Positions 7,957 through 25,428 of a stretch of 64,000 nucleotides of DNA are shown piece by piece. Both the position numbers and the translations under genes were made by a program. Source of the DNA: Salinibacter grassmerensis. Its GTDB lineage: Bacteria; Bacteroidota; Rhodothermia; Rhodothermales; Salinibacteraceae. The stretch spans positions 532,818-596,817 of the forward strand of contig NZ_CAMTTF010000001.1 of NCBI RefSeq assembly GCF_947077765.1, written 5' to 3'. The notes beneath the pieces were generated by a model. That model ran no database searches, had not been told where the DNA came from, and saw nothing but the letters and a program-made list of their open reading frames with translations. Within the stretch, counting starts at the first letter, position 1. Every line of letters begins with the position of its first letter.

Positions 7957-10614
7957 TTACTCAGCCAAGGACAGTTTTTGCGACGAAGGGTGCGGAGACG
8001 CGCTCGGCCGTGGGAGCCGGACGATGAACCGGCTCCCCATCCCTTTCTCCGTCTTTACCTCGATCGAGCCGTCCATCTGCTCGACAGCTTTCTTGGTGAC
8101 GGCCAATCCAATGCCGGTGCCCTCGTACTGTCGAGCAAAGCCTTCCGAGGCCTGGCGGAATGGTTCGAACAGCTTCTCGGCAACCTCGGGCTCCATCCCG
8201 ATGCCGGTGTCCTCGACCTCCAGTACTGCGTGTCCCGCGCCGCGGCGAACCCGAACCCAGACCTTCCCGTCGTCGCCGGTGTACTTGATTGCATTGGAAA
8301 GGAGGTTGCGTACGACGATCTCCACCCCTCCGCGGTCTGCCTCGGACCAGACGGGCGCCCCCTCGGCGTGCACCTGGAGGCCGACGTGTTCCTCTGAGGC
8401 ACGCGACCGAAGCTCATCGGCGACTTCCTTCGTCTTTTCGGACAGGTCAATCTCCGTTGAAGAGAAGCCCATCTGGCCGGCCTCCAATCGGGACAGGTTG
8501 AGGATGCCCTCCAGGGTCTTCATCAGCCGCTGTCCTCCCGTCTCGATAAGATGAGCATGCTTCGCCAGAGAACAGGAGTCGGGGAGATTTAGCGCACTGG
8601 CCTTTGCCTCGATGGCCTCGGCGAAACCGATGATGGTGGTGAGGGGCGTCCGGACCTCGTGGCTCATGTTTGCGAGCAACGCCGACTTCATTTGGTTGGC
8701 CTTCTCGGCTTCGGCCTGGGCAGTCTCTGCCGCCTCCTTCGCGGCCCGGAGGCGCTCCTCCGACTGGACACGGCTGGTGATGTCGAGGCCGCAGCCGACA
8801 ACACTTCGAACGTCCCCCTCGGCGCCTCTCACGGGTTTGTAGAAGCGCACGTAATGCTGTGGACCGTCGTCCGCCTCCACCGTCTCTTCGATGCGGACCG
8901 TCCTCCGTTCACGGACCGCCGTCCGGATGGCCTCGTCGCGGCGACGGCCGAGTTCAGGGGCCAAGTCGTAGTGGTCACAATACTGATCGTAGGTCTTTCC
9001 CCGAACCCAGTCTCGCCGTTCGGGGTCGCTAATGCCTTCCGGGTTGATGTATCTGCACTGGGCGTCCGTGTCGAAGATTCCCAACTTGATCGGGAGTTGG
9101 TCGAGAACCTCTCGGTAGAAGTTCTTCGTCTCCTGGAGGCGCGTCCCGACCTTCTTGCGGTGGAGGGCATTGGTAACCGCGTCGCTGAACACCCGAAGGA
9201 CCGTGATGGTCTCCGGGTCCCACTCGTCCCCGGACGTCACCGCGTCGAAGCCCACGAAGCCGATTAAGCGCTGGTCCTGCGTCATGGGCAGGGCGACGAG
9301 GGACTGGACGTCCTGCGCCTCCAGGGTCTCCTGCACCGCGGCCGCCTCCTTCGGCAGGTTGGCGACCGACGGGACAATGACTGGTTCCCCCCCGCACATC
9401 TGTTCGGTCCACCACGGAAGCTCCGAACAGGGAGTCTTCTGCAGGCTCTCCTTCTCCGACCGGACGCCCCGTGCACACCACTCGTGGGTGTTGGTGGTTG
9501 TGACTTCACTCAGGGGGGCGTTCTCCGGGTCGCCGTCGTATAGAAATACATAACTCCGGTCCGCCTCGACGAAGGATCCGATTTTCCCCAGTGCGTTCTC
9601 GATGCTCTCGTCGAGGTTCTCCAGGGGCGTGTCGATGAACCCAGTGGAGATTTCGACAATCAGGCGCTCGAGTTCGGCCCGTCTCTGGAGTTGGTTCTGG
9701 GCCGTCCGTTGGTCCGTGATGTCGTGAACAATGGTCAGCGCCGCGTCTTCTCCGTGGCGCTGCACCGGTACGGACTGGGACTGGACAATGCGCTCCTTCC
9801 CGTCGAGCCCCGAGGTGCGATGCTCAAAGGGCTCCGACGAGGTGAAGCCGTCGATTGCGTCGAGCGATTGGGGGGACTCCTCTTCTTCCTCCGCCACGAG
9901 GGCGGACACCGAGTAGTCCTGGAGGGCGTCTGTCGTCGATGCGCCAAATAGATCCGCGGCCCGCGCATTGGCGTACTCGACCTCGCGGTCCTTTGAGATG
10001 ACGACCGCCTCCTGAAGGTTGTCGAGAAGGCTTTGCCACTGCTCATTCTTCTCGTGGAGCCGGCCACGCATCGAAAGGTGTGCGATGGCCGCGACCCCCT
10101 CCATGAGCATGATCGTCACGATGCCGATTCCCAACGTGAGGGCCTCGGCGGGCGGAATTGGGCCCAGTGCGAGGCTTCCGATGCTTACCACTGCCCCGAT
10201 GCTCAGAAAGCGGAGGATCGGACCGGCGGACTTTGCACCGATGGCCGCAACCATTGGGAGAATGGCGCACACGACCAGCAGCCCGGTGTCCCGTGCCCCC
10301 CCGAGTCCGTTCTGGACGACCTGCAGGGCGTACCAGCCCATCAGAAGATACAGGACCCCCTTTATCCAGGTCGAATGGGTGTGCCGAACGAACCGCCACG
10401 TGAAGGAGCCGACGACCAGTCCCACAAGCCCGCCGGCAATCACGAATCGTCCCCAGTAGAGCGCCGTGGCCTCAGGATGGATTTGGGTCGAAAGAAGCCC
10501 GGTCAAGAACACCAGCACGGCGCCCAAGAGGCAAAAGACGCGTTGCGTCTGCACCACGGCCTTCTCCCGTGAGGAGAGCGCGTCGTCGTCCGGGCGGAGC
10601 AGAGAGAATGGCAT
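7957..10614 (-). CDS. Membrane sensor histidine kinase with PAS-GAF-PAS sensor region
   Basis: 885 aa from the ATG at 10614; a TTG 45 bases upstream is also possible. Six hydrophobic segments lie at about 25-180, suggesting an integral-membrane N-terminal sensor. Then come a PAS domain (about 195-310), a GAF domain (about 320-480), a second PAS (about 495-615), HisKA with His652 in NMSHEVRTPL, and a HATPase_c domain with NLLSNAIKYT (N box), DTGIGM and GTGIGLA. There is no receiver domain and no response regulator beside it, so it is an orphan kinase. The last 250 residues resemble the neighbouring 2114-aa kinase, including the end GSRFIVRLPRP, which points to duplication of the kinase core. 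Ligand and output are unknown. Confidence 0.9.
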   Translation of the reverse strand: MPFSLLRPDDDALSSREKAVVQTQRVFCLLGAVLVFLTGLLSTQIHPEATALYWGRFVIAGGLVGLVVGSFTWRFVRHTHSTWIKGVLYLLMGWYALQVVQNGLGGARDTGLLVVCAILPMVAAIGAKSAGPILRFLSIGAVVSIGSLALGPIPPAEALTLGIGIVTIMLMEGVAAIAHLSMRGRLHEKNEQWQSLLDNLQEAVVISKDREVEYANARAADLFGASTTDALQDYSVSALVAEEEEESPQSLDAIDGFTSSEPFEHRTSGLDGKERIVQSQSVPVQRHGEDAALTIVHDITDQRTAQNQLQRRAELERLIVEISTGFIDTPLENLDESIENALGKIGSFVEADRSYVFLYDGDPENAPLSEVTTTNTHEWCARGVRSEKESLQKTPCSELPWWTEQMCGGEPVIVPSVANLPKEAAAVQETLEAQDVQSLVALPMTQDQRLIGFVGFDAVTSGDEWDPETITVLRVFSDAVTNALHRKKVGTRLQETKNFYREVLDQLPIKLGIFDTDAQCRYINPEGISDPERRDWVRGKTYDQYCDHYDLAPELGRRRDEAIRTAVRERRTVRIEETVEADDGPQHYVRFYKPVRGAEGDVRSVVGCGLDITSRVQSEERLRAAKEAAETAQAEAEKANQMKSALLANMSHEVRTPLTTIIGFAEAIEAKASALNLPDSCSLAKHAHLIETGGQRLMKTLEGILNLSRLEAGQMGFSSTEIDLSEKTKEVADELRSRASEEHVGLQVHAEGAPVWSEADRGGVEIVVRNLLSNAIKYTGDDGKVWVRVRRGAGHAVLEVEDTGIGMEPEVAEKLFEPFRQASEGFARQYEGTGIGLAVTKKAVEQMDGSIEVKTEKGMGSRFIVRLPRPSASPHPSSQKLSLAE

Positions 10615-11514
10615 GGGGGATGTGGGCGCCACGGCAGCGTAGGGGTTATCTGGGGGCAAAATGCACGACGACCATCTTCGATTCTTAAAACAACTGGTTC
10701 AAAGGCGAAGCCCGTCGTCCCATCCCCGGAACTAAGAATCTCTCGGCCTGCTGGCCGCGTCCCCGAGTCCTACGGTGTTCGCGCCTCGGTTCTGTGTGTG
10801 AGAAGACGCAGGGCGGCCCGGTTTAAGAAACAGCCTGGTTGCCCTGGTCGGGCCCTGCGTGTCTGGCAGCCACCAGCAGTGAAGCGGGGACGACGGCCTT
10901 TGGTGCCGGTTGTCCAAGCGTACGTCCTGCGCATGCGGCATCCCTTCACGGCAATTTCCTTCACGGCAATTTCCCCGCCCCCGCCGTCGGTGGTTGCGGC
11001 CCCGGCCACGTGGCGACGGGGCCGCGATCATGGTCGCTGACCGGCAGCGGGCGTTGGCGCAGGAAATGCCGGCAACGAAGGGCGCCGTGTCCAGGAGAGT
11101 CGGGGGATGCAGGTGTGCCGGCTGGGAGCCTGAGGGGCAATGGCGTCTAGCGAAGCAGCTGTCCACTGCAGGTGCAGAACGATGCAGGACGCACGTGTGC
11201 TTATCGAGCTTGTAGTATATATCGTCCCTAGAGGACATCCCTTTAAGGACCCGCCCTCCAAAGAGTCCACCTTCTGTGCGATTGTAACAAAGCAATCGGT
11301 AGGGTTGCGGACATAGGTGGTCTTCGAAGAGCAAGTTTCCTGCTCATACTGAGCAGAGGACGGTTCCGGACGGGCCAAATACAGGGCGCGGGTACAGGAC
11401 AATATACCCGATCCGAATGACGGAGGCCCGTGATGACGCCGGCGTCGTCCCTGACGCTGGAGGCATCGTCCTGCGGGCCAATTTTCCCGACCCGGTCCGG
11501 TGCTGGAGAGAGAG
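10615..11514. other. 900-bp gap between two kinase genes
   Basis: No credible gene is seen; ORFs here are short, overlap on all frames and have biased low-complexity translations. The region holds a perfect 15-bp tandem duplication (10944-10973) and a short AT-rich stretch near 11213-11223 that could be promoter DNA for the 885-aa kinase gene. Just past the end of the big kinase, 11434-11463 (GACGCCGGCGTC, then CTGACGCTGGAG) resembles the sequence just past the 885-aa kinase gene at 7922-7951, as if the duplication that copied the kinase cores included downstream DNA. Confidence 0.4.
10944..10973. repeat. Two perfect tandem copies of a 15-bp unit
   Basis: CTTCACGGCAATTTC occurs at 10944-10958 and again at 10959-10973 without a mismatch. 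It lies in non-coding DNA. The 15-bp unit would keep any reading frame, but no real gene is recognised there. A recent slippage duplication is the simplest view. Confidence 0.85.
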
Positions 11515-14500
11515 CTACGCGGCCAGGGACTGTCCTTGAGATGAAGATTGAGGAGACGTGGTCGGCCGTGGAAGCCGGACGATGAACCGGCTCCCTACTC
11601 CCTTCTCCGTCTCCACCTCGATCGAGCCGTTCATCCGCTCGACGGCCCTCTTCGTGACCGTCAAGCCCAACCCCACGCCCTCGTACTCGCGCCCCATTCC
11701 CTCGGATTCTTGCCGAAACGCTTCGAAGAGGCTGGGCACCACCTCAGGGTCCATCCCGATGCCGGTGTCCTCGACCTCTAGAAGAGCGTGTTCGTCCTCC
11801 CGACGAGCACGGATGGAGACACTCCCGTCGTCGGTGTACTTAATCGCGTTGGAGACCAGGTTGCGGAGCACAATCTGCACACCGTCGGCGTTGGCCCGGG
11901 CTCGGATCGGCTCCTCGCCGGTCTCGATCTCCAGCCCGATCCCTTTCTCTTCGGCCTGGGGCCGGAGCTCCTCGGCGGCCGCCCGGGCCTGCTCGGACAA
12001 GTCGGTCTCCTCGGCGGGCAGGTCCATGTCTCCGGCCTTCAGTCGGGAGAGATTCAACACATCGGTAAAGGTGTCCATGAGCCGCTGGCCGCTGTGCTGG
12101 ATCAGGCCCGCAAATTCCTCGAGGGACGAGAGGAGGGGCGCCTCCACCGGAGACGTCAGGTCCTGGGTTTCCTCCTCAATCGCCTCCGCGAAGCCGAGAA
12201 TCGAGGTCAGGGGCGTGCGAATCTCGTGGCTCATGTTTGCCAGCAGGGTCGATTTCATTTGATTGGCCTCCTCGGCGGCCTCCTTGGCGTTAAAAAGCTC
12301 GCGCTCGCGACGGACCTCCTCGGTCACATCCTGGGCCAGCAGGAGGCCTCTTGCCTCCGCCTCGCCCTGTAGGGGCACGATCTGAACACGGAGCGTGCGC
12401 CCCCCGACCCCGACCCGCCGGTCCGTCCGCTCCCCATCCAGGGCGGCCTCAAAGCGGTCTACGATGGGGTGTCGTCCCCCTTCGATGCCAATGAGAACGG
12501 TGCCGACCTGCGCGCCGATGAGGTCGGACTCCTCCAGCTCATACGTGCCGATTAGCTCCCCGACTGCCAGCGTGTAGGTGAGGTCGTCGTCGAAGAGGAA
12601 GACCGCCCCGTTGGGGATGTTCTCGGCGAGGGTGCGGTAGCGGCGCTCCCGCGCGACCAGATCACGCTTTTTGCCAAGCCCGTTGAGCGCGTCCCGAAGG
12701 GTCCGGGCCACGATCTCCAGAAGGCGCACCTCCCCCTCGCCGAGCCGGTTCTGGGCCTTTGTGCCCACCACGAGAGCGCCGTGCTCTCCCACCGGAACGT
12801 ACGCACAGGCCTTCAGGCTCGACCGGTCGATGCCATCGTCGATCGTATCGGGATCAGGGTACACCTGGGGCTCTCCGGTCTCGAAAGCGGTCCAGAGCGG
12901 GGAGTGTCCCTTCTCAACCTGAGGCACCGCTCCGACCTCGCCGCCGTTGGCCGCGCCGCTTTTCTTGAGCAGGTCGCCGTCTCGGAGATACACGGCCGCC
13001 TCCTGGAGCCCAAGGGTGCCGCTGAGAGCGTCGACCACGATGGACGCGGCGCCCGCCCTCGTGGTCACGTCCAGAAGATCCCGTGTGGTGCGGTGGAGCA
13101 CCCGGAGGCGCTGCTCCCGAGTTTTGCGCTTGGTCACGTCGGTCGCCACACCGGCAAGCCGCTGGAGCGGATCGTCACTGTCAATGACGTCCAGCCGTAC
13201 CGAGAGCCACCGGCGGCCGCGGGTGGGGTGCAGCACCCGGAACTCCTGATGCTGCGGCCAGCGTGCTTCGTCCGTGGACTGCGCCTCCATGGCCGCCCGG
13301 AGGGCAGAGAGGTCCTGAGGGTGCACGTGGCGGGTCCAGGCACTGGGGTGCTCGTGGAGGGTGTCCCGGTTCACGCCGTATAGCTTTTCGACCGCGCCGT
13401 TGGCGTAGTAAAGCTCTGAGTACTCGAGAGAGACGATGAAGAGTGCATTCGGCACGGTCTCCGCGAACTGCTCGAACCGCTGGTTGGCGTGCCGAAGGGC
13501 CTGGCGCCGGTCTTCTCGTTCGGTAATGTCACGCCCGATTCCGCACAACACCCGGCCCCGTTCCGGGTCCTGGAAGACATCTCCCGTAAACTCGTGGCGC
13601 ACCTTTCGTCCGTCCTTCGTTGTCATCGATGCCTCAACCCGGACGGAATCATCCGTGTCGGCTGCCTCGATGGCGTCGTGGACGCGGGTCGCGTCGTCTC
13701 CGAAGAAGTCAAGGGCGGTCATGGTCTCGAGCTCCGCATCCGTGTAGCCAGTGACCGCGCTCAGGCTATCGTTCCAGAGAACGAGGTCGCCGTCCTCGTC
13801 GAGCAGGTAGAACACGTCGTCGATCGTGTCAAGGATCTGCTCCAGAAACGCCTTCTGGTCGGCTAGGTCCTGTTGGTGGGTCTCACGTTCGGTCACGTCG
13901 TGGATCACCGAGAAGAGGAGCGTCCCGCCCCGGTCCAGGTCCGGAACCGGTGCGGAGAGGACCCGCACCGTCCGGACCTCCCCGGAGGCAAGTTCGTGTT
14001 CGAACAGGAACTCCTCGCCCTCGGCCGCCGCCCTGCGTCGCTCCTGGGACACCTCCTCCGCGGGGAGCTGGTTGATGTCCTGAATCGACATGGACGTCAG
14101 TGTAGCCGGGTCGTGGCCGTAGAACTCGACGGCCGCCGCGTTGGCCCTCTCGATTGCCCCCGTGTCCTCGTCGATCAGCAGCATCGGAGCGCTGTGGTGT
14201 TCGAACATCATTCGGAACCGGCGCTCTCGGCGGGTCAGGTGTTCCTGCATGGTCCTCCGATCGGAGATGTCCCGAAAAACACCATACACCACGCGGCCGT
14301 CGGGGAGATCTACGGTGGTGGCGTTGATCTCAACGGGGACGGTCGTGCCGTCGTCGGTCACGACCTCTATCTGTGTCCCGTCGGGGGTGGTCCGCATCGG
14401 ACTGTTCCCTTCGAGACTCTCGAACAAAGAGGCATATGCCTCGGACTGCCCCGACGGATGAAGATCGGTCTGGTGGATTCCCACAATTTCCTCAAGGGGA

Positions 14501-17500
14501 CGCCCAAGTAGATCCGCGGCCGCTGCGTTCGCCTCTACAATCCGGCCTGTGTCTGCGTCGGCCAGGAAGACGGGGTCGGGGGTTGCCTGAAGAAGTTCCT
14601 CGTAGCGCTTGCGGCTGGCCGCCAGGGCCCGATCGCGTTTGTGCTGCGTCGTGACGTCGGTCGCGATGCCCAGGGCACGGATCGCCTCCCCATCCTCGTA
14701 GATTGGCGTCGCTCGAAGCTTCATCCGGGCAATTGCCTCATCGGGGTGGAAAACCCAAAACTCCCCGCTCCACGGCGTGCCGGTATCGATCATCTCCTCC
14801 AGGGCCGCTTCCACGCGAGAACGATCATTGGGGTGAACGAGATCGGTGAAGGCGTCGAAGGTTGTTGGAGCATGCCCAAATCGGTCCTGGAGGGTCTCGT
14901 CCCACCGCACTTCCCCGGTCTGAAAGTCCCATTCCAGAAGCCCACTGCTGGTTTCTGCCAGCGCCAGGTCGAGCTTCCGCTGACGCTCCCTGAGCATCTC
15001 GGTCTGACGGCGCTGCTCGGTGATGTCCTGGCGGATGCCCACGTAGTTCTGGAGTGTGTCCTCCTCGCTGTACACCGGGGCAAGGGAGAGCCGGCTCCAG
15101 TACGGCGTGCCATCGTCCCGATAGGTTTTGACCTCGACGGTGGCCTGCTCCTCGGCGTCGATAGCCGATCGGATTGTCTCGATCGTGCCAGGATCGGTGT
15201 CCGGGCCCTGGAGAAGCTGGTGGCCCCGGCCCAAGACATCGTCTCGGTGGTAGCCGGTCTGCTCCTCGAAGCCTTCGTTTACGTAGACCAGTGGGTGTTC
15301 GGGCTGAGTGGGGTCGATAATCTGAATGCCCACGTTGGCCTCGTTCATCGCCCGCTCCTTGATCCGGAGCTCGCGCTCGTGTCGCTTTCGCTCCGTGGCG
15401 TCCGTCCCCGCCATGAGCAGGCGTGCCACCTCCCCGTCGTCGAAGATGGGAACCACCAGGGCCTCGACCCAGCGGGTGCGCCCGTCCCCGTCCTCAATTT
15501 GGAACTCGCCGTTCCAGGAAGACGCGCTTTCGGCAACGGACTCGAACCGTTCCCGCACCCATGGACGGTCGTCCGGGGGGACCAGTGCGAAAAACTCCTC
15601 GGTACTCGTAGGCGCGTGTCCGAAGGAATCGCGGAGCATGCCGTCCCACCGAACCTGGCCGGTGCGGAGGTCCCACTCGGCAATGCCGGTCTCGCTCGCA
15701 GTGAGCAGGAGTTGGCGCCTCCGGCTTCGCTCCTGGCGCCCAGTCATGTCCCGCACGGTGCACACGAGCCGCCCTGCCTCTGTGAGCGTAAGGGACAGTG
15801 CCGCCGGAAAGGTGCTACCGTCCGGCTGCTGTCCGGTCACGAGCCCCTGCCAGTGGCCCTCTTCCTCGAGAACCGGAAACACCGTATCCTCTAAGCGCTC
15901 GACCTCCTCGTCCCCATAAAGCATCCGCCAGGTGTTGCCGAGAAGCTGCTCTTTGTCGTCGAAGCCGTACAGTTCGGCGTGGGTCTGGTCGACGTACACA
16001 TACTCGTCCCCGGCCAACACCGCCATGCCGTCGGCGGCGTCCTCGACGGCCTGATGAAGCACCTCCAGTTCCCGCCGCTGGTCTTCCCGGGCTGTCACGT
16101 CGCGGCCCGAGGCGATGAGGGCGGTGACCGCACCGTCCTCGTCCGTGACAGGACGGATGCTACCCCGGATCGTATACTCGAGCCCATCGGTGTCCACGTG
16201 CTGGGACTGGTAGGCCACGTACTCCCCACCGGCCGCCCGCTGAATCCATTCCTGAAGGTCCGCCTGAAGCGCGGCGTCGTGGTCCCACCAGGGGGTCTCC
16301 CAGAAGGGCTGGCCCAGCACGTCGTCCCGGGCCTCCTGGATAAAAGACAGGGCCGTGTCGTTGACCCCCCGGAGTGTCCCTTCCAGGTCGAGGAGGCCGA
16401 CAAACATGTTCGGGTCCTGAAAGACCGCCTCGAACTGCCGCTCGCTGCGACGTAGCTGCCGGGTCCGTTTCCACCGCTCAGTCACGTCCTGATAGATTCC
16501 AATCAGCCGCTCTGGCTCTCCCTTCTCGTCCCGAAGAATCTTCGCTCGGGCATGGACGCGCCGGGTGTCTCCGTCGGCGTGTTGGACGCGGTAGCGGAAC
16601 TGGCAGGTTTCCCGGTCGGGGTCGCCCAGTGCGCGAGCCATCACGTCCTGGAGACGTCCCCGATCATCCGGGTGGACGTGCTCGATGAGCTCGCCGGTTG
16701 TGCGGGGGGCTGCGTCGAGACCGAAGAGCTGCCGGGCCCGCTCATCCCACGTGCGCCGGTCTTCCGGAACGGACCACTCGAACACCCCGGCATCGGCGGC
16801 CCCGAGAGCCACGCGGAGACGTGCTTTCTCCTCGGAGAGCGCCGTGCTCTTTTCTCGAAGAGACGCTTCCGCCTGATGGCGGCGGTGGACACTCCGGGTG
16901 ACGCCGGCCAGCTTGACGGGGGACGTCAGCGTCTCGTCTTCCCCTGGTGAAGACGAGGTGCGCCCAACAACCTGCACAGAGGTTTCCACCCACTGAGGGG
17001 ATCCGTCCGGCTGGAGAATTCGGTACTCCCCGCGCCAACTGCCGCGTTCGAGCAGGGCGTCGACACCGGGAAGGTCCGGCTGGTCCCGTGGATGGGCCGC
17101 CGACAGCGCAAGCATCGGGTCCTGGACGAGCGCATCGGTCGGTCGGCCGAAGATGTTCTCTTCCGAACTGTTGGTGTAAAGCAGCTCTTTGCGGCGAGAG
17201 CCCGTGGCGGCCGAGCTTTCGGGGTAAACCTGGACCTCCCAGACCACATCGTCGAGTGAGGCAAGCAGCTCGTTCAGCCGCGTTTCGTCCAACTCAGCGC
17301 CACTAGTCTGCCCGGCTGCACGGATTTTCTGGCGCCGCCGCCGTTCCAGCTGGTCGACCGCCATTTGTGCCAGTTCATCGAGCCCCGCGAGCTGCTTTTC
17401 CGAGGGCGAGTGAGGTTCGGTGCCGAGTACGCAGACGGTGCCCAGCACGTGGCCGTCCGGTGTCGTCATCGGGGAGCCGGCGTAAAAGCGGATGTGGCGG

Positions 17501-17859
17501 TCGCCCGTCACGAGGGGGTTTCCCTCAAACCGCTCGTCGTCTGTGGCGTCCTCCACGACCAGCCGCTGGCCATCCTCGAGAGTGTGGACGCAAAAAGAGG
17601 AGTCCAGGTCAAGCTCCGGGGCGTCGAAGCCCACGCAGGCCTTGTGCCACTGCCGGTCGTCTTCGACAAACGTGATGAGTCCTACGGGCACGTCGAACAG
17701 GGCCGCCGCGAGGTCCGAGATGCGGTCGAACGTTTCCTCCGGTGGGCTGTCGAGGATCTCGTAGCGGCGCAGGGCCTGGAGTCGGCTGGGGTCCAGGCTC
17801 ACATACTTCTTCTTGTCATTGCTCGGAGACGGCGTCGATGAGCTAGAGGAACTGGCCAT
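11515..17859 (-). CDS. Giant soluble histidine kinase: GAF, eleven PAS, GAF, PAS, HisKA, HATPase
   Basis: 2114 aa with no transmembrane segment, so probably cytoplasmic. A serine-rich start leads into a GAF domain (about 25-175). Eleven PAS domains follow to about residue 1575, most ending in a D[IV]T.R-like hinge. Then come a second GAF (about 1580-1725), a twelfth PAS (about 1730-1850), HisKA with His1878 in [10 protein letters not shown], and HATPase_c with NLVSNAIKYT, DTGIGM and GVGLGLT. The sixth PAS (about 832-955) is LOV-like, with NEGFEEQTGY and LQGPDTDPGTI, but has His880 where LOV photoreceptors have the flavin-adduct cysteine. No receiver or response regulator is linked. PAS-repeat kinases of this style are common in haloarchaea. 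Inputs may be redox, heme or flavin ligands; none can be named from sequence. Confidence 0.9.
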   Translation of the reverse strand: MASSSSSSTPSPSNDKKKYVSLDPSRLQALRRYEILDSPPEETFDRISDLAAALFDVPVGLITFVEDDRQWHKACVGFDAPELDLDSSFCVHTLEDGQRLVVEDATDDERFEGNPLVTGDRHIRFYAGSPMTTPDGHVLGTVCVLGTEPHSPSEKQLAGLDELAQMAVDQLERRRRQKIRAAGQTSGAELDETRLNELLASLDDVVWEVQVYPESSAATGSRRKELLYTNSSEENIFGRPTDALVQDPMLALSAAHPRDQPDLPGVDALLERGSWRGEYRILQPDGSPQWVETSVQVVGRTSSSPGEDETLTSPVKLAGVTRSVHRRHQAEASLREKSTALSEEKARLRVALGAADAGVFEWSVPEDRRTWDERARQLFGLDAAPRTTGELIEHVHPDDRGRLQDVMARALGDPDRETCQFRYRVQHADGDTRRVHARAKILRDEKGEPERLIGIYQDVTERWKRTRQLRRSERQFEAVFQDPNMFVGLLDLEGTLRGVNDTALSFIQEARDDVLGQPFWETPWWDHDAALQADLQEWIQRAAGGEYVAYQSQHVDTDGLEYTIRGSIRPVTDEDGAVTALIASGRDVTAREDQRRELEVLHQAVEDAADGMAVLAGDEYVYVDQTHAELYGFDDKEQLLGNTWRMLYGDEEVERLEDTVFPVLEEEGHWQGLVTGQQPDGSTFPAALSLTLTEAGRLVCTVRDMTGRQERSRRRQLLLTASETGIAEWDLRTGQVRWDGMLRDSFGHAPTSTEEFFALVPPDDRPWVRERFESVAESASSWNGEFQIEDGDGRTRWVEALVVPIFDDGEVARLLMAGTDATERKRHERELRIKERAMNEANVGIQIIDPTQPEHPLVYVNEGFEEQTGYHRDDVLGRGHQLLQGPDTDPGTIETIRSAIDAEEQATVEVKTYRDDGTPYWSRLSLAPVYSEEDTLQNYVGIRQDITEQRRQTEMLRERQRKLDLALAETSSGLLEWDFQTGEVRWDETLQDRFGHAPTTFDAFTDLVHPNDRSRVEAALEEMIDTGTPWSGEFWVFHPDEAIARMKLRATPIYEDGEAIRALGIATDVTTQHKRDRALAASRKRYEELLQATPDPVFLADADTGRIVEANAAAADLLGRPLEEIVGIHQTDLHPSGQSEAYASLFESLEGNSPMRTTPDGTQIEVVTDDGTTVPVEINATTVDLPDGRVVYGVFRDISDRRTMQEHLTRRERRFRMMFEHHSAPMLLIDEDTGAIERANAAAVEFYGHDPATLTSMSIQDINQLPAEEVSQERRRAAAEGEEFLFEHELASGEVRTVRVLSAPVPDLDRGGTLLFSVIHDVTERETHQQDLADQKAFLEQILDTIDDVFYLLDEDGDLVLWNDSLSAVTGYTDAELETMTALDFFGDDATRVHDAIEAADTDDSVRVEASMTTKDGRKVRHEFTGDVFQDPERGRVLCGIGRDITEREDRRQALRHANQRFEQFAETVPNALFIVSLEYSELYYANGAVEKLYGVNRDTLHEHPSAWTRHVHPQDLSALRAAMEAQSTDEARWPQHQEFRVLHPTRGRRWLSVRLDVIDSDDPLQRLAGVATDVTKRKTREQRLRVLHRTTRDLLDVTTRAGAASIVVDALSGTLGLQEAAVYLRDGDLLKKSGAANGGEVGAVPQVEKGHSPLWTAFETGEPQVYPDPDTIDDGIDRSSLKACAYVPVGEHGALVVGTKAQNRLGEGEVRLLEIVARTLRDALNGLGKKRDLVARERRYRTLAENIPNGAVFLFDDDLTYTLAVGELIGTYELEESDLIGAQVGTVLIGIEGGRHPIVDRFEAALDGERTDRRVGVGGRTLRVQIVPLQGEAEARGLLLAQDVTEEVRRERELFNAKEAAEEANQMKSTLLANMSHEIRTPLTSILGFAEAIEEETQDLTSPVEAPLLSSLEEFAGLIQHSGQRLMDTFTDVLNLSRLKAGDMDLPAEETDLSEQARAAAEELRPQAEEKGIGLEIETGEEPIRARANADGVQIVLRNLVSNAIKYTDDGSVSIRARREDEHALLEVEDTGIGMDPEVVPSLFEAFRQESEGMGREYEGVGLGLTVTKRAVERMNGSIEVETEKGVGSRFIVRLPRPTTSPQSSSQGQSLAA

Positions 17860-18504: not shown

Positions 18505-20712
18505 CTACGAAATGATCTTTACCCCGGTAAATTCGAACCGGGCGCCCCCGTTGTCCGCGTCCGTGAGGCGGACGGTCCAGCCGTGTGCCTCGGCGATGCG
18601 CTTCACGATTGAGAGACCAAAGCCGGTCCCCTCTTCCCGCGACGTTTCCCCGGGCTCGAATGCTTTCTCGCGGCGTTCAGGCGACACCCCAGGCCCGTCG
18701 TCCTCCACGTACAGGGTGGAGTCGTCGGCACGCCCCACCCGCACCGTCACATCGCCCTCGCTGTGCTCCACGGCGTTCCGGAAGAGATTTTCGAAGACGT
18801 GTCGGAGGCGGTCCGGATCGGCCTCGATCGTGCGCTCGTCGTTGACATCCAGGGACGCCCCGTCGGTCTCGACCATGTCCCAGCACTGCTCCGCGATCTC
18901 CATTACCGAAACGGGCTCGAGGGATTCAGCCTCGTTGCCCCGCCGGGCGAGGACCAGTGTGTCGGAGATGATATCCTCCATCCGGTCGAGGGCCTGGTGT
19001 ACTTTCTCGCGGTGGAGCTCCTCGTAGGCAGGATCCTCGACGGAAAGCGTGGTGCGCATCTGCGCGACGTTGAGCGGGTTGCGGAGGTCGTGGGCCACGA
19101 TGCCCGCAAACTCGTCCAGTCGTTCGTTCTTGCGGCGAAGTTCCTCTTCGCGGTGAACCTGATCAGTGACGTCGCGGGCAATCCCGACGATGCGGGTAAC
19201 CGCGTCGTCAACGATGACGGGCGCGAGCTTGGTCTGCCAGATCTGCGTCCCCGCGGGCATGTCGAGCTCCTCCTGGTAGGAAATGGGCTCCCCGGCCTCT
19301 ACGCAGCGGTGGTAGTTCGCCTCGAGTTCGGCGCCGAGGTTCGGGCCGAGAACCTCCCGGGGGGTTTTTCCCCGGACGGATTCCGAGTCGAGTCCCGTCG
19401 CGGCCTCGTGGTACGGGTTGAGGCGCTCGAAGCGAAATTCCATGCCCGCCTCCTCCTCCTCCACGTCGACGAAGAAAATGGCGTCCTCGGCGTTCTCGAG
19501 AAGTGCGTGGTATTCTTCGCTGAGCGCCTTGAGGGTTTGTTCTCTTTGGAGCTGCTCCGTCACGTCTCGGGTGAGGGCGATGAAACGCTTCTCGCCGCCG
19601 ATTTCCGTCTTGTCCACCCACACCTCGATTGGGAACGAGGAGCCATCCTTACGGCGGTGGCGGCCGCTTTTCTTCGCGCGGTCGCCGACCTCCATGGTTG
19701 TCCAGGTCTCCCGCAGCTCCTCCTGGGACAGGCCGACCTCGAAGTCCGCCACGTTCATGGACAGCAGCTCCCGGTACGTGTAGCCGAGCTCGTCGACCGT
19801 TTGCTCGTTGACGTCTAAGATGTTTCCCTCCGCGTCGTGGACCACGACAGAGTCGGGAAGATCCTCGAACAGCGACTTCAGGCGCTGGCGACTGCCCTCG
19901 AGGGTCTTCTCACGCCGCTTCCGCTCGGTGATCTCTCGGCTGATGCCGACGATGCCCACGATGGTGCCGTCCTCGTCGCGGTGCGGGTACCTATTTTCCA
20001 GAAAGACGTGTTTCTCACCGTCGATGAACCGGGTGGCCTCGTAGGATTCTGCGTTCCCGTCCGCGAGGATCTGCTCGTCGACCCTACGAATTTCGGCGGC
20101 ACTCTCGGCGTCGAACAGGTCTTCGGCGCGCTTCCCGACGGCCTCCTCGGGGGTGAGCCCGACAAGATCGGCGGCCGCCTCGTTCACGAACTGGTAGCGC
20201 CCCGCACGATCCTTGAGGTACACGGCCTGTGCGGTGTTCTCGACGAGCGCGCTAAGCTGACGGTTTTTCTGCGCGAGCTCCTGTTCCGAGGTTTTCCGGT
20301 CCGTGATGTCGGTGAAGTAGAGCGACAGTCCGCTCTTGTCGGGATAGACGCGTACTTCGAACCACTGGTCTAGGCCCGGGTCGAATCGCTCAAAGGATTG
20401 CCGTTCCTGAGTTGCCATCGCCGCGTCGAGGGCATTCTCCGCGGCGGTTCCCCGCGACTCCGGGAAGGCGTCCCACACGTGCTGGCCGATCAATTGCGTC
20501 CGGTCGGCATCCAGGATCTGCTCGGCCCGGTCGTTGACGTAGGTATACCGGAGATCCGTATCGAGGGCCACGATGCCCTCGCTCACGCGCTCAAGGACGG
20601 TGCTTCGTTTTAGTGCTTCGTCGTCGTCGAGGTGCTGCACGGTGGAGGAGATCATGCGCTCGAAGAACCGGGTGGGGCGGAGCGGAAACGTACTCGATTC
20701 TACCAAAGACAT
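18505..20712 (-). CDS. Haloarchaeal-type PAS histidine kinase
   Basis: 736 aa from the ATG at 20712; an ATG at 20655 is an alternative. Four PAS domains lie at about 30-145, 150-265, 270-390 and 395-515, followed by a dimerisation domain with His541 in GIVAHDLRNPLNVA and an ATPase domain. The core is not the usual bacterial SHE(I/L)RTPL type. It has HDLRNPL, HVFENLFRNAVEHS, EEGTGFGLSIVKRIAEAHGW and a last strand GGARFEFTGV, the pattern typical of haloarchaeal kinases. No transmembrane segment, receiver or partner regulator is seen. Acquisition from or exchange with haloarchaea is my inference. It is separated by 185 bases from the end of the RND gene. Confidence 0.88.
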   Translation of the reverse strand: MSLVESSTFPLRPTRFFERMISSTVQHLDDDEALKRSTVLERVSEGIVALDTDLRYTYVNDRAEQILDADRTQLIGQHVWDAFPESRGTAAENALDAAMATQERQSFERFDPGLDQWFEVRVYPDKSGLSLYFTDITDRKTSEQELAQKNRQLSALVENTAQAVYLKDRAGRYQFVNEAAADLVGLTPEEAVGKRAEDLFDAESAAEIRRVDEQILADGNAESYEATRFIDGEKHVFLENRYPHRDEDGTIVGIVGISREITERKRREKTLEGSRQRLKSLFEDLPDSVVVHDAEGNILDVNEQTVDELGYTYRELLSMNVADFEVGLSQEELRETWTTMEVGDRAKKSGRHRRKDGSSFPIEVWVDKTEIGGEKRFIALTRDVTEQLQREQTLKALSEEYHALLENAEDAIFFVDVEEEEAGMEFRFERLNPYHEAATGLDSESVRGKTPREVLGPNLGAELEANYHRCVEAGEPISYQEELDMPAGTQIWQTKLAPVIVDDAVTRIVGIARDVTDQVHREEELRRKNERLDEFAGIVAHDLRNPLNVAQMRTTLSVEDPAYEELHREKVHQALDRMEDIISDTLVLARRGNEAESLEPVSVMEIAEQCWDMVETDGASLDVNDERTIEADPDRLRHVFENLFRNAVEHSEGDVTVRVGRADDSTLYVEDDGPGVSPERREKAFEPGETSREEGTGFGLSIVKRIAEAHGWTVRLTDADNGGARFEFTGVKIIS

Positions 20713-20897
20713 CTCCGCAATGACCGTACCATCTCCAGGTCCTCCCTGGCTGGGCCAGGGGCACGTCCTCAGACATCGGGCCAGCACTCACTAAGACACT
20801 CATAGGATAATCCGAGGGCCGGCCGGTACCTGCGCAGTCCAGTCCGGAAGTGGGAACCGAGAGACGGAAACATTTGCCGCTCCCTGTTCCCGGAGAG

Positions 20898-24104
<3,207 letters not shown>

Positions 24105-24177
24105 CGGTTGAGAATCGGGAAATTCCAGGTGTGCAGATTGAGAGAGGTCGGCCCCACGTTTTCGATCCACAAATGGA

Positions 24178-25428
24178 CTACTGGGCCAGGCGAACCGTCA
24201 TGCTGTCGGTCTGCACGCGGAGGTCGGTCGTGATCACACGGGTGTCCGGGTCGAGCGTCGGGGCGAGGTAGGTCTTCTCCTCTACCGTCTGGATCGGCTC
24301 GACGGTGCGCTCGGCCAACATCGAGTCCCCGACCGCCGTCCAGACCACCGGGGGCTGGTCGGCCTCGCGGGTGTGGACTGCCCGGCGGGGCACCACGTGG
24401 TAGGTGCCGTTCTGACGGCCTTCGATATTGACCGTCGTGTAGGTGCCGATGGCCAGAGGGGGACGCGTCCGGCCCCGCGGCTCCGTCGGCTCTTCGGGGC
24501 GACGGGATTGTACGGTCGGGGCCTGGGCGTACGGATCTGGCACGCGCACCACCACGTCGACCGTGCGGGTCTGCTCGTCGATGGCGCCCTCGACCCGGTG
24601 GACGCGCCCCTCCCACGCGTATCTTTGCCCGCCGTACGTGCTGGTCACGGTGGCCGGAAGCCCGGCGTCGCGGGACTGCCCGCCCGTCGCCCACAGATTG
24701 TCGATCAGGGCCGCCTTTTGGGACGGGAGCGAGACGACGATTTCGGCCTCTTCCGTGCCGTAGACCGTGGCGACGGGCGTGCCAGGGGCCACGTACGCGC
24801 CCAGGTCGGCCTGCTTCTGGCGCACCATGCCGGCGAAGGGCACCTGGAGGCGGGTGCGCTCGAGGTTGGTGCGCGCGTTCTGGAGGGCGGCCCGGGCACT
24901 CTCGAGGGCGGACTGTGCCTGTGCCACCTGGGGCTCGTTAAAGACGAGCCGCCCGAGTTCGGTGCTGTCGGGGGCGGGCGTCTCCCCGGTGCGGCCCTGG
25001 AGGCGCTCGTAGTCCTCCCGGGCCGCGCCCGCCTCCTCCTCAGCCTGTAGGAGCTGCACCCGGGCCTGTGTCACCTGCGCCTCGGCCTGTTGCACGGCGC
25101 TCTGGTAGTCGGCGGGGTCGATGCGGGCCAGGGTCGTCCCGGCGTTGAACCGGCCGCCACTCACGAGCGCGTCGGAGACGTCGACGAGGCGCCCTCCGAC
25201 CTCGGCGGTCAGCTCAATCTCGCGGACGGGCCGCACGGTCCCGGTGCCCCGCACGAGCAGGCTGCCGGCACGCACCTCCACAGGGGCCGTCGACACCAGC
25301 GGGGACTGCGGCGGTGGGTCGCTCGTCTCCGGCTCCGGGGCAAATACGGTAAGGAGAGCCACAACGGCGGCGGTTCCGAGAAGGAGGCCGCCCCCAATGA
25401 GGGGCCACTTGAGGGTGCTGATGTCCAT
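24178..25428 (-). CDS. Periplasmic adaptor (membrane fusion protein) of RND pump
   Basis: HlyD/AcrA-type adaptor, 416 aa, linking the inner-membrane pump to the outer-membrane channel. One N-terminal hydrophobic anchor lies at about 8-30 and there is no lipobox, so it is membrane-anchored. A lipoyl-like half (GTGTVRPVREIELTAEVGGR) is followed by a coiled coil at about 105-200, the second lipoyl half (RTRLQVPFAGMVRQKQADLG) and beta-barrel plus membrane-proximal domains. It lies 56 bases after the outer-membrane gene and 73 before the transporter gene, and should be co-transcribed with them. Confidence 0.92.
   Translation of the reverse strand: MDISTLKWPLIGGGLLLGTAAVVALLTVFAPEPETSDPPPQSPLVSTAPVEVRAGSLLVRGTGTVRPVREIELTAEVGGRLVDVSDALVSGGRFNAGTTLARIDPADYQSAVQQAEAQVTQARVQLLQAEEEAGAAREDYERLQGRTGETPAPDSTELGRLVFNEPQVAQAQSALESARAALQNARTNLERTRLQVPFAGMVRQKQADLGAYVAPGTPVATVYGTEEAEIVVSLPSQKAALIDNLWATGGQSRDAGLPATVTSTYGGQRYAWEGRVHRVEGAIDEQTRTVDVVVRVPDPYAQAPTVQSRRPEEPTEPRGRTRPPLAIGTYTTVNIEGRQNGTYHVVPRRAVHTREADQPPVVWTAVGDSMLAERTVEPIQTVEEKTYLAPTLDPDTRVITTDLRVQTDSMTVRLAQ

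Follow-up and report, generated by a model that had tools for sequence, protein, structure and literature searches.

The Host Kinase and Its Genomic Setting

The window analyzed here, a 64,000-nucleotide stretch of the Salinibacter grassmerensis genome, carries a minus-strand open reading frame (11515–17859) for a sensor histidine kinase of 2,114 amino acids. Pfam matches give the order of this protein as an N-terminal GAF domain, a long PAS array, a second GAF domain, HisKA, and HATPase_c. The TIGR00229 model recognizes 10 stretches in the kinase and gives no settled number of PAS units; partition by hand makes the domain considered below (residues 831–959; 14983–15369, minus strand) the sixth PAS domain, in agreement with the initial annotation. 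The motifs quoted in that annotation, NEGFEEQTGY, GRGHQLLQGPDTDP, and YRDDGTPYW, are all present in the translation of this interval.

Three PAS histidine kinases lie near one another on the same strand (7957–10659, 11515–17859, and 18505–20787, all minus), and genes for AcrB-type and HlyD-type transporters (20898–24170 and 24178–25428, both minus) adjoin them. A 200-amino-acid open reading frame between two of the kinases (10732–11334, minus strand) has no Pfam match at 1e-5 and may be spurious. No response regulator domain was found among the seven scanned open reading frames that neighbor the 2,114-residue kinase.

A PAS Domain of the LOV Type

Residues 831–959 constitute a LOV-type PAS domain by fold as well as by sequence, clearly above generic PAS models. 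On the isolated domain, the NCBIfam YtvA model reached 129.9 bits and the blue-light histidine kinase model 104.8 bits, against 52.9 bits with the generic sensory box. The cut-offs of these two LOV models (250 and 450 bits) are whole-protein settings that the isolated domain stays below. The best match by sequence to a solved structure, among the best 60 of 164 matches, was the LOV domain of YtvA (2pr5; E 7.5e-28). An AlphaFold2 model of the domain, built on 65 sequences, reached a mean pLDDT of 95.7 and has the same fold as YtvA LOV (Z 19.9, rmsd 1.5, 117 aligned residues). It also superimposes on the LOV structure 9vf7 (Z 22.2, rmsd 1.0, 129 aligned), the apo LOV domain of W619_1 (5luv; Z 20.1, rmsd 1.8, 129 aligned), and the PAS domain of the EAG1 channel (4hoi; Z 19.4, rmsd 1.0, 108 aligned). 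All 50 of the matches listed by Foldseek for this model were LOV or LOV-construct entries, and the 50 listed by VIA included two EAG1 channel PAS entries; Aer, NifL, and MmoS were absent from the Foldseek and VIA matches listed.

Loss of the Photoactive Cysteine and of Flavin-Pocket Residues

The adduct-forming cysteine of the NCRFLQ motif is missing from the domain, which reads GRGHQLLQ and places His880 (codon 15222–15220, minus strand) at the position of YtvA C62; the ortholog in a second genome of the genus, G012, has Ala there. The histidine had been recognized in the initial annotation, as had the change of the NYRKDG asparagine to threonine, which is Thr912 (15124–15126, minus) at the position of the YtvA flavin contact N94; the G012 ortholog keeps Asn. 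The residue losses go beyond these two positions, extending to the equivalents of N61, R63, N104, and Q123. Gly879 (15223–15225, minus) stands for the flavin contact N61, Ser922 (15094–15096, minus) for the flavin contact N104, and Arg943 (15031–15033, minus) for the signaling glutamine Q123, and the G012 ortholog has the same three residues. The flavin contact R63 is replaced by Gln881. Further changes in or beside the pocket are V28 to Gln846, T30 to Ile848, and N37 to His855 (YtvA numbering), while Gln884 and Arg897, the equivalents of the ribityl and phosphate contacts Q66 and R79, are retained. In all, two of the seven YtvA contacts N61, R63, Q66, R79, N94, N104, and Q123 are found in the window domain and three of the seven in the G012 ortholog. 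The two copies differ from each other at six pocket positions (window/G012: Q/E, I/T, H/N, H/A, Q/W, and T/N).

For a quantitative comparison, eight flavin-contact positions were defined, namely the cysteine and these seven contacts. The cysteine, N61, R63, Q66, and R79 of YtvA are named as flavin contacts in the available text of PMC3836802, and that of PMC5314338 describes in this role N85, N95, and Q116 of W619_1, which are equivalent to YtvA N94, N104, and Q123. Conserved positions were those shared by at least 80% of 30 aligned sequences that have the cysteine (90% in a variant), and retention was compared by Fisher test. At 80%, the window domain keeps 2/8 contacts versus 17/21 other conserved positions (p = 0.009; 0.006–0.057 across variants) and the G012 ortholog 3/8 versus 18/21 (p = 0.019); at 90%, the counts are 1/7 versus 11/14 (p = 0.016) and 2/7 versus 11/14 (p = 0.056), respectively. 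Because the sequences from the species collection had been retrieved via peptides of the query itself, the 80% count was repeated with restrictions. With the peptide-pattern positions dropped, retention was 1/6 versus 9/13 in the window domain (p = 0.057) and 2/6 versus 11/13 in the ortholog (p = 0.046). Only the ten cysteine sequences from genome searches gave 1/7 versus 23/34 (p = 0.014) and 2/7 versus 24/34 (p = 0.079), and both restrictions together gave 0/5 versus 16/22 (p = 0.006) and 1/5 versus 17/22 (p = 0.030). These sequence counts lend moderate support to a concentration of residue loss in the flavin pocket.

Relatives of the Domain

Matches to the domain at E 1e-20 or better occur in 20 of 27 genomes of the family, the genome of origin included. 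The only close one besides its own is that of G012 (68% identity, E 1.2e-51), the rest being 36–45% identical; this search returned 32 places, of which two without a locus are outside the set. In a sample of the phylum, 8 of 395 genomes, again including its own, match at 1e-26, and 25 named records of the species collection match as well. The alignment A1 and the trees comprise 65 rows, all non-identical and matched by tblastn at an E value of 1e-12 or below, and leave out weaker matches, such as L004, L005, L006, and L008 from the same genome and second domains in some loci. At the cysteine position, the 65 rows of the tblastn alignment have His in the window domain, Ala in G012, Cys in 30, Pro in 28, and other residues in 5; in A1 the same column has 30 Cys, 31 Pro, and 2 others besides the window/G012 pair, a difference due to the alignment.

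In the best tree, the window/G012 pair shares a side of 34 rows (support 100/99) with every one of the 30 cysteine rows, opposite a branch of 31 rows with Pro in 27. The pair stays on the cysteine side when ten motif columns are removed. An AU test with the pair forced to the Pro side did not reject this constraint (p-AU 0.138). Identity of the domain is 30–49% to the cysteine rows and up to 42% to the Pro rows. A haloarchaeal origin was considered and rejected: the pair joins two archaeal rows with support of 94/4 and is not alone with them after the motif columns are dropped. The exact NCRFLQ pattern was found in the DNA of none of 13 genus genomes, three of which are 62–83% complete. As a positive control, the pattern was recovered in 12 of 13 cysteine-LOV loci; the one missed, L037, reads NCRFMQ, and variants such as NCRFMQ or NCRLLQ would therefore escape it.

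The Pro-type LOV-like domains of the genus and family are related to the window domain and likewise lack the cysteine, but they keep the N94 equivalent in 31/31 and the Q123 equivalent in 28/31 and form a separate branch in the best tree. Family examples in which proline occupies the cysteine position (GxTPRxLQG) are L002 (G000:C3:619268–619567, in the same genome), L038, L040, L041, L045, and L054, and their proline recalls that of haloarchaeal BAT-LOV*, which binds flavin, as described in part of PMC4682037. From these residues, a role as cysteine-less flavin sensors seems more plausible for the Pro-type domains than for residues 831–959. A LOV-like domain from Methylococcaceae (L011:7931–8287) carries methionine in place of the cysteine (GRSMSILQG) and keeps the N94, N104, and Q123 equivalents.

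Orthologs and History of the Domain

The full-length kinase was found at E 1e-200 in 4 of 13 genus genomes, including its own (G000). The G012 ortholog has the whole architecture, and among the orthologs found no other carries the domain. The orthologs in G014 and G015 lack residues 827–958 (132 codons; 14986–15381, minus strand) with an in-frame junction that is identical in both; the edges of this segment are approximate, the linkers being alike. Given this in-frame absence, the domain looks dispensable. It is 68% identical between G000 and G012, and 14 other segments of the kinase are 60–86% identical. Since its divergence matches that of the other segments, it is probable that the domain is as old as the kinase gene and that the G014/G015 lineage lost it by deletion. 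A gain of the domain is a possible alternative to deletion, because the inner branch of the kinase quartet tree has support of 70.8/73 and the tree has no outgroup root. The dN/dS of the domain between G000 and G012 is 0.36, the second highest of 15 segments (range 0.12–0.39), which indicates that the domain is still constrained and is no free pseudodomain.

The history of the kinase (11515–17859; L063, L072, and L073) disagrees with that of RpoB, in which G000 lies close to G014/G015 and G012 is more distant. Kinase identity is 85.2% between G012 and G015 and 70.5–72.1% between G000 and the others, and G013, which has a zero RpoB protein branch to G012, yet has no kinase match at 1e-200. The kinase gene may have moved between lineages.

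Comparison With Known Systems and Alternative Readings

None of the papers listed by the literature searches named this very kinase, and the later searches listed nothing closer than papers found earlier. The cysteine is kept in only 57% of the LOV cluster according to the available text of PMC10468136, and its loss alone is thus common. Cysteine-less relatives of LOV domains have already been published, and residues 831–959 are a more degraded example. The initial annotation had offered two readings of the domain, a dead light sensor or a flavin-binding redox sensor, set against the possibility of a plain PAS_9 domain with no flavin-pocket residues. The last of these holds in one respect and fails in the other: the flavin-pocket residues are mostly gone, but the fold matches LOV domains best.

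That the domain never was a photoactive LOV, and owes its likeness to shared PAS letters or to the Pro-type LOV-like family of the genus, is very unlikely. Pfam PAS_9 is passed at 65.6 bits (gathering cut-off 27), and the AU result and the overlapping identities to cysteine and Pro rows are compatible with such an origin; nevertheless, generic models reach only about half the score of the LOV-specific YtvA model, and both the best tree and the structure matches favor LOV. A light sensor like LOV*, lacking the cysteine and signaling via flavin photoreduction, has the least to recommend it and is judged highly improbable. According to the available part of PMC4682037, about 70 natural LOV-like proteins carry residues such as Ala, His, or Pro in place of the cysteine, and BAT-LOV* binds flavin; the window domain resembles these LOV* proteins as a LOV relative with another residue at the cysteine position, His being among those named. 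The proteins in that set, however, were selected for keeping at least nine other conserved residues. Only 3/9 of those listed are kept here, and 4/9 in the ortholog, so the domain is no LOV* in the sense of that paper, and an arginine replaces the glutamine that passes on the signal by flipping.

The redox-sensor reading would have the LOV scaffold rebuilt into a pocket like that of Aer or MmoS, with His880 stacking on the isoalloxazine and Arg943 near N5. These residues align with His53 and Arg115 of Aer; the available text of PMC9668731 describes the former as stacked on the flavin and the latter as near N5, with equivalents in MmoS. The domain thus shares with these FAD-binding redox PAS domains a His at the cysteine position and an Arg at the glutamine position. 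Arg943 is common to the window domain and its G012 ortholog, and the retained Arg897 could hold the FMN phosphate. Against this likeness, 6/8 contacts are changed, and two residues taken as marks of FAD redox PAS domains (Aer, MmoS, and NifL), Aer Asn85 and Trp70 (in F-alpha), correspond to Thr912 and Arg897 (the LOV-type arginine), while Aer Arg57 corresponds to Gln884; Trp is given as the primary determinant of FAD binding in the text available from PMC10468136. The Asn85 equivalent is Asn in the G012 ortholog, but there the His/Arg pair reads Ala/Arg, so the His is not conserved, and the G014 and G015 orthologs lack the domain altogether. A flavin redox sensor is considered unlikely, and less likely than a retired LOV domain. 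More doubtful is the specific proposal that the Aer-type redox pocket arose a second time by convergence, in which case the His/Arg pair would have been gained on a LOV scaffold that kept its LOV-type arginine to hold the FMN phosphate. Heme binding via His880 was also considered and was rejected, as the residue is Ala in the G012 ortholog and no other observation hinted at heme. Remodeling of the pocket to bind a different small ligand likewise appears unlikely; this has been proposed for EAG1, whose PAS domain belongs to the same LOV-related cluster. Polar residues do occupy the pocket (Gln846, His855, His880, and Arg943), Gly879, Ser922, and Arg943 are common to both copies, and the structural comparison also matched the EAG1 domain (4hoi; Z 19.4), which the same part of PMC10468136 describes as derived from a flavin PAS. 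The PAS domains of KCNH channels (EAG1 and hERG) share the LOV-related fold and crystallized without flavin, as far as the available text of PMC3598652 and PMC10468136 describes, but they are eukaryotic channel domains, compared with residues 831–959 by structure. For comparison, PMC3598652 gives a pocket volume of 730 cubic angstroms in phototropin LOV1. The six pocket positions at which the window and G012 copies differ speak against a remodeled ligand pocket.

A Probable Retired LOV Domain in a PAS Array

The explanation preferred here, which is judged moderately probable, is that residues 831–959 are a retired LOV domain, most likely a flavin-free, folded relay or dimerization module that was later deleted in one lineage. 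YtvA-type bacterial LOV domains are among its closest known counterparts, from which it differs in lacking the reactive cysteine and in having N61, R63, N94, N104, and Q123 all replaced. With the photoreactive cysteine and most of the flavin-holding residues lost, the domain is probably a retired light sensor; the wording of the initial annotation, a LOV-like domain without the cysteine and a dead light sensor, is supported by the models, the best tree, and the predicted fold. Residue loss is no proof of an empty pocket, since FAD-binding Aer also lacks most of the LOV contacts. A LOV domain can, in turn, fold empty, as a LOV protein has been crystallized without flavin (described in the available part of PMC5314338).

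The proposed history begins with descent from a photoactive LOV domain. The equivalents of the cysteine, N61, N104, and Q123 were probably already lost in the ancestor of the window and G012 copies. After the split, the cysteine position would have diverged to His in the window copy and Ala in G012, and the equivalents of N94, T30, and N37 would have been lost in the window copy only. Flavin binding and light sensing are most likely gone, leaving a putative apo state, while the LOV/PAS fold and the place in the PAS chain appear to have been retained. Within the kinase, the domain may now act as a ligand-free dimerization or signal-relay element between the PAS domains on either side. Deletion is preferred over gain for the G014/G015 lineage, where the segment was probably cut out between similar linkers. 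The relay role envisaged for residues 831–959 draws on general knowledge of PAS arrays.

Taken together, the copies form a graded series that runs from LOV domains with the cysteine, through the G012 copy with 3/8 contacts and the window copy with 2/8, to the G014 and G015 kinases, which are without the domain. The significance of this series is otherwise modest, but it helps in judging which LOV-like annotations represent real light sensors.
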